Assembly (NCBI GenBank): GCA_020438665.1
Contig: JAGQUE010000613.1
Span: 1-5,319, forward strand
Direction: 5' to 3'
Length of the DNA: 5,319 nt
Source: Nocardioidaceae bacterium
GTDB lineage: Bacteria; Actinomycetota; Actinomycetes; Propionibacteriales; Nocardioidaceae
Shown in pieces: positions 1,743 to 5,004 of the stretch (positions are counted from its first letter, which is position 1; each line of letters opens with the position of its first letter). The position numbers and the translations under genes are program-made. The notes under the pieces are model-generated. The model ran no database searches. It worked only from the letters and a program-made list of their open reading frames with translations, and had not been told where the DNA came from.

Positions 1743-1857
1743 GAGAGCGGGCGTGGTGTGCCGTCCGGGGTAGACGGCCGCGCCGCCAGCGGAACCAACG
1801 GGGACTCGAACCCCAACCGCCATGTGCCAGATAACCGAACTGCTCCGGCCCGCTCTC
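1743..1857 (-). ncRNA. tRNA-like RNA just upstream of rsr (Y RNA candidate or decayed tRNA)
   Basis: A clear T-arm lies at 1815-1799 on the minus strand: GGGG, loop TTCGAGT, CCCC. Ahead of it is a D-like hairpin, CGGA (1847-1844) with TCTG (1831-1828), whose loop GCAGTTCGGTTA contains the GG of D-loops. A perfect 10-bp inverted repeat (1848-1857 with 1743-1752) ties the ends together, and a 6-bp hairpin follows the T-arm. The result is a closed RNA of about 115 nt with a tRNA-like part, as known for bacterial Y RNAs. It ends 40 bases before rsr. The alternative is a colinear tRNA at 1791-1866: 5-bp acceptor GAACC/GGTTC, anticodon arm GTTAT-CTGGCAC-ATGGC with apparent anticodon GGC. That fold has two acceptor mismatches and an overlong D-loop, and it borrows bases from the neighbouring RNA's terminal stem. 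The tRNA resemblance is clear; the identity is not. Confidence 0.5.
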
Positions 1858-1861
1858 GAGA

Positions 1862-1993
1862 GGTTCGGGTGGGCATGGTGGTGACCACCGGAGTCATGTG
1901 CTCTGCCGTTGAGCTACCTCGCCGAGGCGAGGGCGGGGGTCGAACCCGCAACACCAGGATCCGTTAACCGACGGTCGTCGGCCCACCCGAACC
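1862..1993 (-). ncRNA. Circularly permuted tRNA-Arg(CCG)-like RNA with a 13-bp closing stem
   Basis: On the minus strand the tRNA 3' half (about 1963-1925) precedes the 5' half (1923-about 1888). The first half holds anticodon-stem strand TCCTG, variable GTGTT, T-arm GCGGG-TTCGACC-CCCGC, acceptor CCTCGCC and T73. After one further base (C1924) come acceptor GGCGAGG, TA at positions 8-9, D-arm GCTC-AACGGCA-GAGC, A26 and CATGACTCCGG. Swapping the halves gives a 72-nt tRNA with perfect acceptor, D and T stems, U33, loop CTCCGGA and anticodon CCG. The anticodon stem CATGA/TCCTG has one T-C mismatch. Both halves carry CGG at the break. Flanks 1981-1993 and 1862-1874 form a perfect 13-bp inverted repeat, with small hairpins CCGAC-GACC-GTCGG and GGTGG-TCA-CCACC inside it. 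It may be a Ro60-binding Y RNA with a closed acceptor stem, or a permuted pre-tRNA needing endonuclease and ligase. The fold is seen directly; the function is inferred. Confidence 0.78.
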
Positions 1994-2011
1994 ATTAGTG
2001 GACAGCATCAG

Positions 2012-2083
2012 AGGCCTCTCCCGGAATCGAACCGGGGTCGGCGGCTTTGCAGGCCGCTGCCTCAACCACTCGGCCAAGGGGCC
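2012..2083 (-). tRNA. tRNA-Cys (GCA)
   Basis: Anticodon arm GCGGC-CTGCAAA-GCCGC is perfect and carries anticodon GCA. T-arm is CCCGG-TTCGATT-CCGGG. The D-arm GCC/GGC with an AGTGGTTGA loop resembles actinobacterial tRNA-Cys, and the discriminator is T, as expected for Cys. Acceptor GGCCCCT/AGAGGCC pairs except for a C-A at position 5. CCA is not encoded. Its 5' 22 bases overlap the end of the HNH reading frame, and its 3' end is 18 bases from the permuted RNA. Confidence 0.92.
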
Positions 2084-2520
2084 GCGAGCTCGGCCCGCGT
2101 GGGGACCGACGGCTCGACGAGGAGCCGCATGCCGGCCTCCTGCGGAGTCCGGTCGGACTTGCGGGAGTTGCACGGCGCGCACGCCGCCACCGTGTTGAGC
2201 CACGACCAGGCACCGCCCCGGCTCACCGGGAGCACGTGGTCGACGGTGGTCGCTCGGCGGCCGCAATAGGCACAGCGGTGCCGGTCGCGCCGGAGCACAC
2301 CGGCCCGCGTGAAGCCGGCAGGGCGATACATCCACGTCGCGGCGACATAGCGCACCAGCCGGATGACCTTGGGCCACGGGTGCGGCCCGATCATCTTGTC
2401 GCCACGCCCCTCCTCGACGATGGCCACCTCGCGGAAGAGCATCCGCACGGCATGCTTGAACGACACCGTGCCGAGCGGCTCATAGGAGGCGTTCAGCAAG
2501 GTCACCGACGTCATGGTCAC
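2062..2520 (-). CDS. HNH endonuclease
   Basis: This is a 152-residue HNH-family nuclease. The N-terminal stretch with LLNASYEPLG (8-17) is typical of a common actinobacterial and phage HNH group. The C-terminal half carries the zinc knuckle Cys83-x2-Cys86 and Cys114-x2-Cys117 around the ββα-metal core, which has Asp94-His95 and Asn109. All expected metal and catalytic positions look intact. The GTG at 2520 is preferred because AAGGAGG ends about eight bases before it; the in-frame ATG at 2514 would be about 14 bases away. The ATG-led extension to 2631 would overlap the end of rtcB and lacks such a site. The stop (2064-2062) lies inside tRNA-Cys. The family includes homing-type nucleases and phage packaging or recombination helpers. 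Its job here is unknown, but it may reflect mobility of the tRNA array. Confidence 0.9.
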   Translation of the reverse strand: MTMTSVTLLNASYEPLGTVSFKHAVRMLFREVAIVEEGRGDKMIGPHPWPKVIRLVRYVAATWMYRPAGFTRAGVLRRDRHRCAYCGRRATTVDHVLPVSRGGAWSWLNTVAACAPCNSRKSDRTPQEAGMRLLVEPSVPTRAELAAPWPSG

Positions 2521-2568
2521 CGCTGGCACCTCCTTCCTGGTCTCCTCGGGTGTGCGGTGGATCGGCGT

Positions 2569-2611
2569 ACGACGCACCGCCAGCCCCGTCGCGGGACCGG
2601 CGGCACGCCGT
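2569..2611 (-). terminator. 20-bp hairpin directly after rtcB
   Basis: Bases 2611-2592 pair continuously with 2588-2569 on the minus strand: 20 pairs, six of them G-U, around a CGA loop. The six G-T oppositions suit an RNA helix rather than a DNA palindrome. The stem starts four bases after the rtcB stop codon. No U tract follows, so it fits a U-less actinobacterial terminator or attenuator, a double-strand processing site, or an mRNA stabiliser between rtcB and the HNH gene. Confidence 0.6.
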
Positions 2612-2615
2612 CTGG

Positions 2616-3842
2616 TCAGCCCTTCACGCACATCAGCGTGGTGAGCCGGGCAACGACCTCGACGAGGTCGACCTGGGCCTCGATGACGGCACCGAGGTCC
2701 TTGTAGGCGCCGGGGATCTCATCGACCACACCCGCGTCCTTGCGGCACTCGACCCCGGCGGTCTGCGCCACCAGGTCCTCGACGGTGAAGGTGCGCTTGG
2801 CCTTGGAGCGCGACATCCTGCGGCCTGCGCCATGCGAGGCCGACCAGTACGACGCCTCGTTGCCGAGGCCCTTCACGACATAGGAGCCGGTGCCCATCGA
2901 GCCGGGGATGAGACCCCACTCCCCCAGCCCCGCGCGGATCGCGCCCTTGCGGGTCACGATCAGCTCGGTCCCGTCGGAGAGGGTCTCCCGCGCCACATAG
3001 TTGTGGTGGGCGGAGATCTGCTCGCCGAAGTCGACGGTCAGACTCTCAGCCGCGAACGCCTCGGCGACCACCCGCTGGAAGATCGCCATCATGACCGCGC
3101 GGTTGCGGGCGGCGTACTCCTGCGCCCACGTGAGGTCATGCAGATAGGCATCCATCTCGGGCGTCCCGGCCAGGAACACCGCCAGGTCACGGTCGGGCAG
3201 CCCGAGGTTGTGATCCAGCCCCCGGGCCGCAGCGATGTGGCGCTCGGCGACCTCCTTGCCGATGTTGCGCGAGCCGGAGTGCAGCATGAGCCACACCTGC
3301 CCGTCGTCGTCGACGGTGAGCTCGAGGAAGTGGTTGCCGCCCCCGAGCGTGCCCATCTGCTGCTTGGCACGGCGCTCGCGGTCCTGCACGCCCTGGTGCA
3401 GGGCCCCGAATCCGCCCCAGAACGCCGACCAGCCGGCGAAGCGCCCGTGGTCGAGCCCGAGCCGCTTCACGTCGGGCGCCGCGTCGTGGGAGGAGAACCC
3501 GACCGGGATCGCCCTCTCCACCGCCAGCCGCAGCCGATGCAGGTCGTCGGGGAGGTCGCCCGCCGTCAGGCTGGTGCGCACCGCCTGCATGCCGCAGCCG
3601 ATGTCGACGCCGACCGCGGCCGGCGAGACCGCGTCCCGCATCGCGACGACCGAGCCGACGGTCGCACCCTTGCCGAGGTGGACATCGGGCATCACCCGGA
3701 CGCCGTGCACCCACGGCAGCCGGGAGATGTTGCGCAGCTGATCGAGCGCCGCGGGCTCCACCTCGTGCGGGTGCGCCCACATCAGAGTCTCGGCCTCGGC
3801 GCCCGGCAGGGCGACCGGCAAGTCGTGGGTGTTGGTGGTCAT
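2616..3842 (-). CDS. rtcB: RtcB-type RNA ligase
   Basis: This is a 408-residue RtcB. The family seals RNA with a 2',3'-cyclic phosphate or 3'-phosphate to RNA with a 5'-OH, using GTP and manganese. It repairs cleaved tRNA and rRNA in bacteria and splices tRNA in archaea and animals. Visible active-site elements are Asp80 and Cys83 in GVDIGCGM, His171 in GGGNHFLEL, His188 in LHSGSRNIG, the HHN segment (279-281), and the presumed GMP-accepting His337 in SHGAGRRMSRS. The C-terminus VKG is typical, and nothing appears missing. The ATG at 3842 has AAGGAGG five bases upstream; the frame extends further, but only through tRNA sequence. It begins 35 bases after the CCA of tRNA-Arg(CCG), so it is probably co-transcribed with the tRNAs. 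Neither rtcA nor archease is in the window. Plausible substrates include the neighbouring tRNAs and the permuted RNA. Confidence 0.96.
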   Translation of the reverse strand: MTTNTHDLPVALPGAEAETLMWAHPHEVEPAALDQLRNISRLPWVHGVRVMPDVHLGKGATVGSVVAMRDAVSPAAVGVDIGCGMQAVRTSLTAGDLPDDLHRLRLAVERAIPVGFSSHDAAPDVKRLGLDHGRFAGWSAFWGGFGALHQGVQDRERRAKQQMGTLGGGNHFLELTVDDDGQVWLMLHSGSRNIGKEVAERHIAAARGLDHNLGLPDRDLAVFLAGTPEMDAYLHDLTWAQEYAARNRAVMMAIFQRVVAEAFAAESLTVDFGEQISAHHNYVARETLSDGTELIVTRKGAIRAGLGEWGLIPGSMGTGSYVVKGLGNEASYWSASHGAGRRMSRSKAKRTFTVEDLVAQTAGVECRKDAGVVDEIPGAYKDLGAVIEAQVDLVEVVARLTTLMCVKG

Positions 3843-3877
3843 GGTCGCCTCCTTCGGCGTTCTCTTGGATTCTGGTC

Positions 3878-3949
3878 TGGTGCCCCCACCTGGAGTCGAA
3901 CCAGGCAGCCCGCCTTCGGACGGCCGGTGGCAGCTCCGCTGCTGAGGGC
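3878..3949 (-). tRNA. tRNA-Arg (CCG), shortened D-arm
   Basis: Acceptor GCCCTCA/TGGGGGC pairs fully with one T-G wobble, followed by A73 and an encoded CCA (3880-3878). T-arm CCTGG-TTCGACT-CCAGG is perfect. Anticodon arm CGGCC-GTCCGAA-GGCGG has U33, anticodon CCG and a G-G mismatch at the second pair. Only 16 bases separate the acceptor from the anticodon stem, where 18-20 are usual, so the D-arm is cramped (about GCAGC-GGA-GCTGC). It abuts the CCA of tRNA-His with no spacer. It could be impaired or non-canonical. Confidence 0.62.
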
Positions 3950-4026
3950 TGGGGTGACTGCCCGGAATCGAACCGAGGACCTCCAGAGCCACGATCTGGC
4001 GTGCAGGGCCGCTACACCACAGTCAC
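3950..4026 (-). tRNA. tRNA-His (GTG) with C33 and no encoded G-1
   Basis: Acceptor GTGACTG/CAGTCAC is perfect, followed by C73 and an encoded CCA (3952-3950). D-arm is GTGT-AGCGGCCCT-GCAC, anticodon arm CCAGA-TCGTGGC-TCTGG and T-arm CTCGG-TTCGATT-CCGGG. C73 and the acceptor match actinobacterial tRNA-His. Two features are abnormal. The base before the anticodon is C rather than the near-universal U33, and position -1 is T rather than the G that pairs with C73 in bacterial tRNA-His. It starts two bases after the tRNA-Arg(ACG) discriminator. Confidence 0.82.
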
Positions 4027-4028
4027 AG

Positions 4029-4100
4029 CACCCCCTCCAGGACTCGAACCTGGATCCCCGGTTTCGTAGACCGGTGCCGTCTCCGTTGGGCCAAAGGGGT
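4029..4100 (-). tRNA. tRNA-Arg (ACG)
   Basis: Acceptor ACCCCTT/AGGGGGT is complete with one T-G wobble. Anticodon arm CCGGT-CTACGAA-ACCGG and T-arm CCAGG-TTCGAGT-CCTGG are perfect. The D-stem has three pairs (GCC/GGC) with a C-C at the fourth. Anticodon ACG would be read after A-to-I editing to decode CGU, CGC and CGA. Discriminator is G and CCA is not encoded. It follows the three-hairpin spacer after the whiB-like gene. Confidence 0.92.
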
Positions 4101-4110
4101 CGGGGCTGCT

Positions 4111-4156
4111 GGGGACTCCCCCGCGGCGCCATGCGCCCCGCACGCAGCCGGTGCGG
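4111..4156 (-). other. Three tandem RNA hairpins between the whiB-like gene and tRNA-Arg
   Basis: On the minus strand, three stems follow each other almost without gaps. The first is CCGCAC/GTGCGG with a seven-base loop (4156-4138), the second GGCGC-ATG-GCGCC (4137-4125), and the third GGGGAGTCCCC (4121-4111). They fill the space between the stop codon at 4163 and tRNA-Arg(ACG) at 4100. No U tract follows. They may stall or end transcription after the regulator gene, or guide cleavage of the tRNA transcript. Confidence 0.4.
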
Positions 4157-4162
4157 TCCTGC

Positions 4163-4477
4163 TCAGGCGGCGGTCGACTTCTTGGGCCGACCCCGCTGCT
4201 TGACGGTCTCGATGGGCTTGCCGTTCTCGAGGAGTACGCCGCCCCAGACGCCCCACTCCCTCCGGTCCACACCGAGGGACAGGCAAAGCGTCCGTACGCC
4301 GCAGCCGGCGCACACCGCCTGGGCCTCGGCCAGCCCCGCCTCGTCGGCAGGGTCGAAAACGTCGGGGTCGTCATAGCCCACGCAGCCCCAGGAGACGGCG
4401 GGCAGCCGCGGGGTGGGGTGGCCATAGGCCACCGTCACACCCCAGGTGTCCAGGGACTCGGTCATCGTGGTGTTCAT
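4163..4477 (-). CDS. WhiB-family iron-sulfur transcription regulator
   Basis: This is a 104-residue Wbl protein. Family members bind a [4Fe-4S] cluster, usually sense redox or nitric oxide, and act with the main sigma factor in actinobacteria and their phages. Four cysteines at 32, 56, 59 and 65 give the C-x23-C-x2-C-x5-C pattern, followed by the GVWGG turn at 76-80. The tail KQRGRPKKS contains RGRP, an AT-hook core like that of WhiB7-type proteins. The ATG at 4477 is preferred, with AAGGAGGTGA ending about eight bases upstream; an in-frame ATG at 4465 is a weaker alternative. It sits within the tRNA array, 38 bases after the CCA of tRNA-Met and ahead of the tRNA-Arg group. This position suggests it may control this operon or host genes, but its targets cannot be read here. 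Confidence 0.92.
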   Translation of the reverse strand: MNTTMTESLDTWGVTVAYGHPTPRLPAVSWGCVGYDDPDVFDPADEAGLAEAQAVCAGCGVRTLCLSLGVDRREWGVWGGVLLENGKPIETVKQRGRPKKSTAA

Positions 4478-4515
4478 GTGCCTGTCACCTCCTTCGGTTG
4501 CTCGGATGGCACACG

Positions 4516-4586
4516 TGGTTGCGGGGCCACGAGTCGAACGTGGACCGACGGGCTTATGAGACCCATGGCGTCACCCGACACCCGCA
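4516..4586 (-). tRNA. tRNA-Met (CAT), minimal D-arm
   Basis: Anticodon loop CTCATAA gives CAT, on stem TGGGT/GCCCG with G-U pairs at both ends. T-arm CCACG-TTCGACT-CGTGG is perfect. The 3' end CCCCGCA, A73 and encoded CCA resemble initiator tRNA. The acceptor pairs at six of seven positions, including T1-A72, where bacterial initiators have a mismatch. Only 14 bases lie between the acceptor and anticodon stems, so the D-arm is at best GTC-GGGT-GAC. Initiator, elongator or lysidine-modified Ile type cannot be settled. Confidence 0.8.
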
Positions 4587-4610
4587 TCGGCGCCGCCAGT
4601 GCACCGGTCG

Positions 4611-4682
4611 TGGGGCCGCGAGGGATCGAACCTCGCCCTGCCGGGCTTCAACCGGCCGCGCCGCCGTCAACGCTTCAGCCCC
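4611..4682 (-). tRNA. tRNA-Phe (GAA)
   Basis: Acceptor GGGGCTG/CGGCCCC (one T-G), D-arm GCGT-TGACGGCG-GCGC, anticodon arm GCCGG-TTGAAGC-CCGGC and T-arm CGAGG-TTCGATC-CCTCG all pair. Anticodon is GAA with U33. Discriminator is A, as expected for Phe, and CCA is not encoded. It starts one base after the discriminator of tRNA-Leu, consistent with a single processed precursor. Confidence 0.92.
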
Positions 4683-4683
4683 G

Positions 4684-4770
4684 TACCCGCCCCCGGAGTC
4701 GAACCGGGATGCCCCGAGGGGCGCGGCGTTCTGAGCGCCGTTCGTCTTCCGCTGATGTCGCGAGAATCCG
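4684..4770 (-). tRNA. tRNA-Leu (CAG) with a degenerate 5' half
   Basis: The 3' two-thirds is a clear class II tRNA: anticodon arm CGGCG-CTCAGAA-CGCCG (CAG), long variable arm GCCCC-TC-GGGGC, T-arm CCCGG-TTCGACT-CCGGG, acceptor strand GGCGGGT and A73. The upstream strand lacks a good partner. The best fit, ATTCTCG from 4767, gives five pairs, two of them wobbles. The D-region AGCGGAAGACGAA looks like a Leu D-arm missing the part that carries GG. The space since tRNA-Glu is right for a full-length gene, so this looks like sequence decay rather than truncation. The exact 5' end is uncertain. Confidence 0.7.
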
Positions 4771-4844
4771 TACCCCCAGCCGGGCTCGAACCGGCGCCCT
4801 CCCGGATGAGAACCGGGCGTCCTTGACCACTAGACCATGGGGGC
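4771..4844 (-). tRNA. tRNA-Glu (CTC)
   Basis: Acceptor GCCCCCA/TGGGGGT pairs with a G-T first pair. D-arm is GTC/GAC, anticodon arm CCCGG-TTCTCAT-CCGGG with anticodon CTC, and T-arm GCCGG-TTCGAGC-CCGGC. The sequence closely resembles normal actinobacterial tRNA-Glu, including the ATGGTCTAGTGG start of the D region. Discriminator is A and CCA is not encoded. tRNA-Leu follows at once. Confidence 0.95.
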
Positions 4845-4931
4845 GAGCGAGGTGTGCCGTGGACCGGGGGCGACCGCGGGTCGAGGGTCCGGGCGGGCAG
4901 CCGTCACCACGGCGTGCCCCGGCACGAGTGG
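4845..4931 (-). other. Structured spacer between tRNA-Asp and tRNA-Glu
   Basis: This 87-base spacer has no convincing gene. A 7-bp inverted repeat (4856-4862 with 4907-4913) encloses 44 bases that contain a smaller stem, CGACC-CGC-GGTCG. A separate GTGCC-GG-GGCAC hairpin lies next to tRNA-Asp. No T-loop or D-loop motif is present, so I do not call a further tRNA. In this position it could aid processing of the tRNA transcript. Confidence 0.35.
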
Positions 4932-5004
4932 CGCTCCGTACGGGACTCGAACCCGTGATCTCCCGCTCGACAGGCGGGCGTCCACTCCACTGGACCGACA
5001 GAGC
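4932..5004 (-). tRNA. tRNA-Asp (GTC)
   Basis: Acceptor GCTCTGT/ACGGAGC pairs with one T-G. D-arm GTCC-AGTGGAGT-GGAC, anticodon arm CCCGC-CTGTCGA-GCGGG (GTC) and T-arm ACGGG-TTCGAGT-CCCGT are all perfect. Discriminator is G, as required for Asp. Position 8 is C instead of the usual T. CCA is not encoded. It is the first tRNA of the array visible in transcription order. Confidence 0.94.

Follow-up and report, generated by a model that had tools for sequence, protein, structure and literature searches.

Does a tRNA-like element whose T-arm half precedes its D-arm half encode a circularly permuted tRNA, or an RNA of another kind that resembles one? The question is raised by positions 1862-1993 (minus strand) of a 5,319-nucleotide stretch of Nocardioidaceae DNA, which was analysed as a whole and is called the window below. 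The original prediction was a circularly permuted tRNA-Arg(CCG). Its description of the bases is accurate: the T-arm half comes before the D-arm half with all named bases present on the minus strand, the halves are joined across a 7-bp acceptor stem (1932-1926 / 1923-1917) with a two-base TC tip, and the anticodon stem has a single mismatch (CATGA/TCCTG, 4/5 pairs). If the halves are swapped, ARAGORN reads a tRNA-Arg(ccg). In the native order the program calls seven tRNAs in the window and none at 1862-1993. The permuted order and the tRNA fold are retained below; the assignment as a tRNA-Arg(CCG) gene is not. The element is probably (we estimate about 0.88) a YrlA-type bacterial Y RNA with a tRNA-like head, and neither charging nor decoding is expected of it. 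The remark, made along with the original prediction, that bacterial Y RNAs are tRNA mimics is supported.

The neighbourhood is actinobacterial, with all genes on the minus strand: a Ro60 ortholog, an HNH protein, the RNA ligase RtcB, a WhiB-type protein and the seven tRNAs called by ARAGORN (Table 1). The Ro60 gene (TROVE and vWA domains) lies about 160 bases downstream of the RNA on the same strand. The closest relatives of its product are from Cellulomonas and an Actinomycetales MAG (82-84% identity in the best segment). The RtcB, HNH and WhiB-type genes and the tRNA array adjoin Ro60 at 2011-5004 of the window (minus strand). No RtcR was seen in the window. Two more tRNA-like stretches that ARAGORN does not call were noticed by eye at 3876-3960 and 4684-4768 (minus strand); one has a 7-bp acceptor with ACCA and an odd D arm, and one has a long variable arm and a CAG anticodon-like loop. 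In the tRNA-Met called by ARAGORN at 4516-4586 (minus strand) the anticodon is at position 29, the 5' half being unusually short.

A second Y-like RNA was found beside Ro60. Its 10-bp closing stem is present in the predicted fold of 1743-1859, the z-score of the whole fold being only -0.7. Relatives also give model matches at this place, and a T arm like that of the second RNA is absent in the 12 relatives compared there.

Table 1. Features of the window and coordinates of stand-alone permuted tRNA-like elements in other records
Feature	Position	Strand	Basis or remark
Probable YrlA-type Y RNA, ~132 nt	1862..1993	-	held-out covariance model R2; Rfam RF02553 (below cut-off)
Closing stem H1, 5' strand GGTTCGGGTGGGC	1981..1993	-	13 bp with 1862-1874
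Ro60-side stem H2, 5' strand GACCGTCGG	1968..1976	-	9 bp with 1883-1891
GGTTAAC, Y-RNA-like motif beside H2	1963..1969	-	GGTTAYC in relatives
Anticodon-stem-like strand TCCTG	1955..1959	-	pairs 4/5 with 1894-1898
Variable loop GTGTT, 5 nt	1950..1954	-	by position
T arm GCGGG-TTCGACC-CCCGC	1933..1949	-	96.8% of cells paired in A1
Acceptor-like stem, 3' strand CCTCGCC	1926..1932	-	pairs with GGCGAGG
Acceptor tip TC	1924..1925	-	CUCG cap if the innermost pair is opened
Acceptor-like stem, 5' strand GGCGAGG	1917..1923	-	A1 covariation
U8-A9 equivalents TA	1915..1916	-	T at first position in 122/122 parsed matches
D arm GCTC-AACGGCA-GAGC	1900..1914	-	A1, A2
Anticodon-stem-like strand CATGA	1894..1898	-	pairs 4/5 with 1955-1959
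Ro60-side stem H2, 3' strand CCGGTGGTC	1883..1891	-	includes bases originally taken as anticodon
Closing stem H1, 3' strand GCCCACCCGAACC	1862..1874	-	A1 covariation
Second Y-like RNA beside Ro60	1744..1857	-	10-bp closing stem, GGTTATC, T-arm hairpin GGGGTTCGAGTCCCC, without D arm
Ro60 (Rsr) ortholog, 542 aa	74..1702	-	TROVE + Ro60 vWA; Pfam PF25045 E 2.3e-61, PF05731 E 1e-42
tRNA-Cys(GCA), closest tRNA gene to the RNA	2011..2083	-	ARAGORN; Rfam 60.6 bits
RtcB RNA ligase	2616..3842	-	Pfam PF01139 E 3.2e-123
Stand-alone element, plasmid	L385:1560-1665		Gluconobacter pSJF2-e
Stand-alone element, plasmid	L506:3999-4120		Nocardia pNF2
Stand-alone element, viral contig	L304:12325-12406	-	= L086:11637-11718
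Stand-alone element, viral contig	L367:767-840	-	
Stand-alone element, viral contig	L091:11543-11613		
Stand-alone element, genome contig	L301:7756-7839	-	
Stand-alone element, genome contig	L300:7659-7740	-	

The bare geometry of the element, defined as a T stem, a 7-bp acceptor with a loop of 0-8 nt, a D stem and an anticodon stem of at least 4/5 pairs, has a single occurrence in the window, and 3 of 200 first-order Markov windows contain it as well. Thus the geometry alone is not overwhelming and is insufficient to exclude a chance origin, which is ruled out by conservation. Homologs occur upstream of Ro60 in many actinobacteria and viral contigs. A held-out model (R2), built without the window from 19 relatives and their RNAalifold structure, scores the window at 125.3 bits (E 2.4e-26); the window's own RNA was the blastn query that yielded these relatives and those in alignments A1 and A4. 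None of 200 dinucleotide shuffles folds as well as the RNA (z -4.4).

Covariation across the permuted stems, suggested as a check along with the original prediction, was found in alignment A1, in a larger alignment and by RNAalifold without the window. A1 is a MAFFT alignment of 19 sequences, window included, and is not fitted to structure. It contains double-sided changes in 23 of 43 pairs, and 91.6% of its cells pair; none of 500 shuffles reaches any of five measures, and slid partners lower the pairing to 37-47%. In the larger, structure-fitted alignment double changes are seen in 39 of 41 pairs. Given the 19 relatives without the window, RNAalifold finds the closing stem, the 9-bp inner stem and the T, acceptor and D stems; it does not recover the anticodon-like stem. 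The single-sequence fold favours another structure (-66.8 vs -58.9 kcal/mol), with no probability for the 9-bp stem and about 0.33 for the D stem. The inner stem H2 is thus absent from the single-sequence fold and recovered de novo from the relatives.

The individual stems of A1 behave as follows. The closing stem H1 has double-sided changes in 8 of 13 pairs, with 89.9% of cells paired, and H2 has double changes in 4 of 9 pairs, with 98.8% of cells paired. In the acceptor-like stem 5 of the 6 outer pairs show double changes and 80.4% of cells pair. The D stem is 100% paired and invariant in A1, and in A2 it varies while the pairing stays. Within the motif GGTTAAC, the GGTTA and the final C are invariant in A1. 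This motif aligns to GGGUUAUC of the Rfam RF01656 stem-bulge RNA consensus (28.3 bits, cut-off 38).

The best Rfam match at the site is YrlA RF02553, with 41.2 bits (E 8.9e-7) against a gathering score of 69, which is the curators' threshold and not a biological trait. None of 20 other loci scanned reaches this score, some being without any model match, and sub-threshold matches to the family also occur in 13 of 14 control genomes. The assignment to the YrlA type is based on architecture and locus: adjacency to Ro60, a long end stem with GGTTAAC, and a tRNA-like domain in the order T arm, acceptor, D arm.

The link with Ro60 is seen both in loci selected by this gene and in genomes that were not. 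Among 111 relatives, all taken from loci chosen by Ro60 (58/80 genome loci and 38/80 viral loci), 106 end at most 1.2 kb upstream of Ro60, and all 111 are on the same strand. In 198 genomes of the phylum not chosen by Ro60, a model match (E 1e-6) was found in 7 and a TROVE domain in 8. All seven genomes with a model match are among the eight with TROVE, the best match being at most 0.9 kb from TROVE on the same strand (P 9e-11 for the co-occurrence, query genome excluded); one of the eight TROVE genomes has no model match. Two further matches are not beside TROVE: in G175 a full-length match lies on a different contig, and in G251 a partial match (L299) corresponds to two identical tRNA genes. 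When 119 genomes were scanned at the order level, six gave full-length matches, with TROVE on the same contig in all five checked. The scan also gave 14 partial matches, 12 of which are adjacent tRNA genes, ten of these being two copies of one tRNA.

Unannotated Y RNAs were also observed upstream of annotated Ro-like genes in the mycobacteriophages LinStu (L286:3685-3947) and Sparky (L285:2109-2340). In LinStu a small hypothetical CDS (3791-3964) overlaps the Y RNAs.

The model matches were used to ask whether the RNAs resemble tRNAs as a class. Two scans gave 304 matches (177 + 127), of which 277 were aligned, and in 122 of these a parser of the two arms recognises the permuted order of T arm, acceptor hairpin and D arm; both the parser and the covariance models favour the very architecture that was subsequently counted. 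The 122 comprise 118 distinct and 112 full-length RNAs, window included. The swap test excluded nine of the 112, whose arms are separated by less than 14 bases. With the halves swapped, ARAGORN reads a tRNA in 92 of the remaining 103, compared to 6 of 112 in the native order. When the halves are mixed between RNAs, a tRNA is read in 13-21 of 103 (five rounds). Thus the tRNA shape is kept within each RNA individually.

The coding features of a tRNA are not kept. The "anticodons" of the 92 swapped RNAs take 39 forms, with CCG in 10 and arginine in 33. The arginine excess is put down to the CCGG strand. It resembles an anticodon and is in fact a conserved stem strand, since GACCGTCGG pairs with CCGGTGGTC in the inner 9-bp stem. 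Some bases of CTCC|GGA, originally read as an Arg(CCG) anticodon loop, are thus part of the covarying stem H2, in which the supposed anticodon partly lies, and the native RNA is not expected to have a free anticodon loop. Seven uninterrupted acceptor pairs are present in only 35 of the 122 parsed matches. Four-nucleotide tip loops close the acceptor in 55 of the 112 full-length RNAs (loops of at least 3 nt were required). The tips include TTCG (15) and CTCG (10), together 25/112, and GAAA, GCGA and GCAA (three each). An encoded CCA was considered as a general YrlA feature and rejected, as NCCA follows the 7-base strand in 3 of 112 RNAs, with 1.7 expected. The 39 different "anticodons" and the acceptor stems of varying length argue for a mimic rather than a decoder.

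An ordinary tRNA-Arg(CCG) is present in at least five of eight relatives' genomes, as counted with a strict pattern, so that more may carry one. The arginine identity bases were considered as a further argument. A20 is an arginine identity base; the window has C20 and T73, and the relatives' tRNA-Arg(CCG) have A20 in 5 of 6 and A73 in 4 of 6. The argument was dropped, as the ordinary tRNA-Arg(CCG) of one relative (L161) has C20 and T73, the same bases as the window.

The stem at the anticodon end behaves differently from the "anticodon". With a variable loop of 5 nt, at least 4/5 pairs of the anticodon-like stem form in 59 of the 112 RNAs, compared to a mean of 12.8 and a maximum of 23 for shuffled partners (1000 shuffles). 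With loops of 3, 4, 6, 7 and 8 nt the counts are 6, 10, 7, 6 and 7 of 112, respectively. Thus about half of the RNAs keep an anticodon stem at the exact tRNA geometry, where it is fused to the Ro60-side stem. This anticodon-like stem is a detail that may be new.

The permuted topology itself is not new. The ARTEMIS study (PMC11472068) already states the permutation relative to tRNA: the bacterial Y RNA 6CU1 can be superposed on tRNAs by way of a circular permutation, and it takes part in 81 of 99 permuted pairs. Predictions of YrlA also exist for mycobacterial genomes and for one mycobacterial prophage (PMC9569102, PMC8190616). The RNA of the window shares with Salmonella YrlA (PDB 6CU1, RF02553) the end stem, T arm, capped acceptor and D arm in permuted order. 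It differs in scoring below the Rfam cut-off, in its actinobacterial setting of RtcB, HNH and a tRNA array with no RtcR seen in the window, and in the anticodon-like stem kept at the exact tRNA geometry in about half of its relatives. Rhizobium plasmid loci (L507:3956-4101, L508:3955-4226) similarly contain a Ro60-type gene (vWA_Ro60 and TROVE) with adjoining YrlA; they carry RtcR, and L508 also carries rtcB. The first YrlA of these loci has a 7-bp acceptor followed by a UCCA tip. The Deinococcus Y RNA, which acts with Rsr and PNPase (RYPER), also lies beside a Ro60 ortholog, and the action proposed below is the same (PMC8394870, PMC7790460); PNPase binding is described there and may or may not extend to the RNA of the window.

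These systems suggest how the RNA may work. The closing stem and the second stem beside GGTTAAC lead into the tRNA-like head. The permutation of T arm, capped acceptor and D arm results from the anticodon end being the place where the RNA passes into the tRNA shape and out of it again. By analogy with published work on YrlA, in which the basal stem serves Rsr and the tRNA-like domain is modified by DusA and TruB (PMC8394870), and on Deinococcus Y RNA, the stems would hold Ro60. Ro60 would thereby take the place of the anticodon loop, and the head would present the elbow and acceptor arm of a tRNA with neither a free CCA end nor a free anticodon loop. Such a head could recruit a tRNA-binding partner, either a nuclease such as PNPase, which Rsr and Y RNA are described to steer (PMC8394870), or tRNA-modifying or repair enzymes. 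Presented in this way to a partner, the head would allow Ro60 and the partner to act jointly on damaged or structured RNA. The adjoining RtcB ligase and tRNA array suggest a setting of tRNA damage. In Salmonella the rsr-yrlBA-rtcBA operon is induced by tRNA damage (PMC7790460).

The RtcB-HNH-tRNA-array setting is not common to the Ro60 loci of relatives. In the fetched flanks of 160 such loci RtcB was found in none, with a query that recovers 80/80 known RtcB loci, and HNH was found in 10. Conversely, an RtcB-led search of viral contigs for the same cluster gave Ro60 in 0 of 80 loci. Two of these loci have model matches at E 0.01 (L192 and L197), the former being an adjacent tRNA pair.

A true circularly permuted tRNA-Arg(CCG), opened by cleavage within the acceptor tip, joined at its anticodon ends perhaps by RtcB, and decoding CGG, is very unlikely. 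It would account for the full cloverleaf read as Arg(CCG) on swapping and for the adjoining RtcB gene, and the ordinary tRNA-Arg(CCG) of L161 shares C20 and T73 with the window. However, its anticodon would be a strand of a conserved stem and would take 39 forms among the relatives, its acceptor would often be interrupted, capped by four nucleotides and devoid of CCA beyond the expected frequency, and it would duplicate a tRNA that most of the relatives examined already have. The absence of RtcB from the 160 loci also stands against it. The permuted tRNA genes of algae and Thermofilum likewise have the 3' half first and an acceptor closed in the precursor, with the junction in the anticodon loop in some of them, and they yield real tRNAs via a BHB-type junction and a circular intermediate (PMC3978253). 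In contrast, the anticodon ends of the RNA of the window continue into the Ro60-side stems, and, as judged by eye, a continuous 9-bp stem occupies the place of such a junction. Even less credible is an origin as debris of two neighbouring array tRNA genes, the T half of one and the D half of the next: the element does sit in a tRNA array, and adjacent tRNA genes do match the core of the model elsewhere, as in the 12 of 14 partial matches above, but covariation is seen in the stems that surround and cross the halves, and loci that lack arrays retain the RNA next to Ro60.

Less remote, although still doubtful, is another role for the same Y RNA, whose head would mainly be a decoy or competitor for anticodon nucleases or repair enzymes that guards the tRNA array, instead of a tether for an exonuclease. 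The surrounding tRNA array, RtcB and HNH genes are consistent with it. In Salmonella YrlA is described as no substrate of the anticodon nuclease, and competitive inhibition is suggested (PMC7790460); mycobacterial tRNA arrays are termed a putative antidefense system (PMC12803027). On the other hand, close relatives retain the RNA without tRNA arrays: in 25 Ro60 loci scanned for tRNAs ARAGORN made six calls in five loci, at least four of them on the Y RNAs themselves.

Seven stand-alone permuted tRNA-like elements, without Y-RNA stems, were found on plasmids, viral contigs and genome contigs (Table 1). A covariance model, which favours paired sequences, supplied L301 and L300 and was also the first source of L304 and L091; similarity led from L367 to L385, and from L385, which holds ACCA, to L506. 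Two candidates with no full-length Y match were left out, L314 (anticodon stem 2/5) and L354 (D arm not parsed). Two of the order-level partial matches (L175 and L177) belong neither to tandem tRNAs nor to Y RNAs, and another such match is in L086. The acceptors of all seven elements have 7/7 pairs (mean 4.3 in mixed halves) and the anticodon stems 4-5 of 5 (2.5 in mixed halves). After swapping, a tRNA is read in 7/7, compared to none in the native order and 12/42 in mixed halves; the anticodon that is read varies with the placement of the join. The tips are ACCATGG, ACCACGA, ACTCAT, ACGCAT, ACCCAT, TTCGA and TCCAGATCAT, and NCCA is encoded in three elements. The 70 bases after the D half fold with -23 to -40 kcal/mol in 5/7 elements, reached by 0-3 of 300 shuffles; in L300 and L091 the folding is not unusual. 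Only L385 has a T run behind the hairpin.

Among 83 sites where CCA is encoded and a normal tRNA lies on one or both sides, none reaches 7/7 acceptor pairs. The pattern of ACNCAT tips occurs in 68 viral loci and in none of 396 genomes of the phylum. In 61 of these loci there is a normal tRNA on one or both sides, with 0-6 of 7 acceptor pairs; of the seven others, six have 7/7 pairs and one has 6/7, and three match the Y RNA model full-length. The Y models cover only the tRNA-like part of the stand-alone elements. RF02553 matches L304 and L301 over the whole length at 35-39 bits, below the cut-off. A Ro60 match was found in 17 plasmid records, none of which is the Gluconobacter or the Nocardia plasmid.

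Possible identities of the stand-alone elements are permuted tRNAs, mimics and tmRNA-like pieces; they might also be by-products of integration near tRNA genes. The element of G114 is preceded by TTGACA and TAGACT, 18 bases apart and 8 bases ahead of the T-half anticodon stem. An attP core is disfavoured for this element, since its halves occur nowhere else in the draft genome with up to 3 mismatches. L304 may be a by-product of an attP core, as an integrase adjoins it on the same contig. Permuted tmRNA genes are known in bacteria, and a tmRNA-like origin could be considered for L304, L367 and L385, which give tmRNA-family matches of 20-27 bits against cut-offs of 47-84. As a DNA query, the L301 element has matches in 149 of 198 genomes (E 0.001), those listed being mostly to one half and some to both, e.g. 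in G520, G058, G530 and the YrlA of G087. L385 has blast matches in 45 plasmid and 18 phage records; the six examined are the stand-alone L506, YrlA-type RNAs (L507-L509) and tRNA pairs (L510, L511).

Tandem copies of one tRNA gene were also seen to match the permuted core (L176, L178-L183, L188, L189, L191), because the sequence from one anticodon to the next already amounts to a permuted tRNA. Tandem copies are thus a possible origin of YrlA heads. We regard as improbable, even more so than the decoy role, a scenario in which YrlA heads descend from a lineage of true bacterial permuted tRNAs, with the RNA of the window as its Ro60-tethered branch. Here the piece between the anticodons of tandem copies could persist as a gene, and the stand-alone elements would be opened at the acceptor and sealed by a ligase at the anticodon, yielding working tRNAs. 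To our knowledge, no permuted tRNA genes are known so far in Bacteria, and no publication on them was found among the matches listed in a literature search. A 2014 review describes bacterial tRNA genes as uniform and permuted ones as present only in an archaeon and algae (PMC4033280).

If the stand-alone elements mature, they would be, as far as we know, the first permuted tRNA genes of bacteria. As for the window, the striking reading as a permuted tRNA is settled in favour of a probable tRNA mimic tied to Ro60. With the Rfam YrlA model and its cut-off, neither this RNA nor the actinobacterial and phage members tried are detected; the new model finds them. Their comparison indicates that the anticodon-end stem of the mimic is selected in many members, and its "anticodon" is not.
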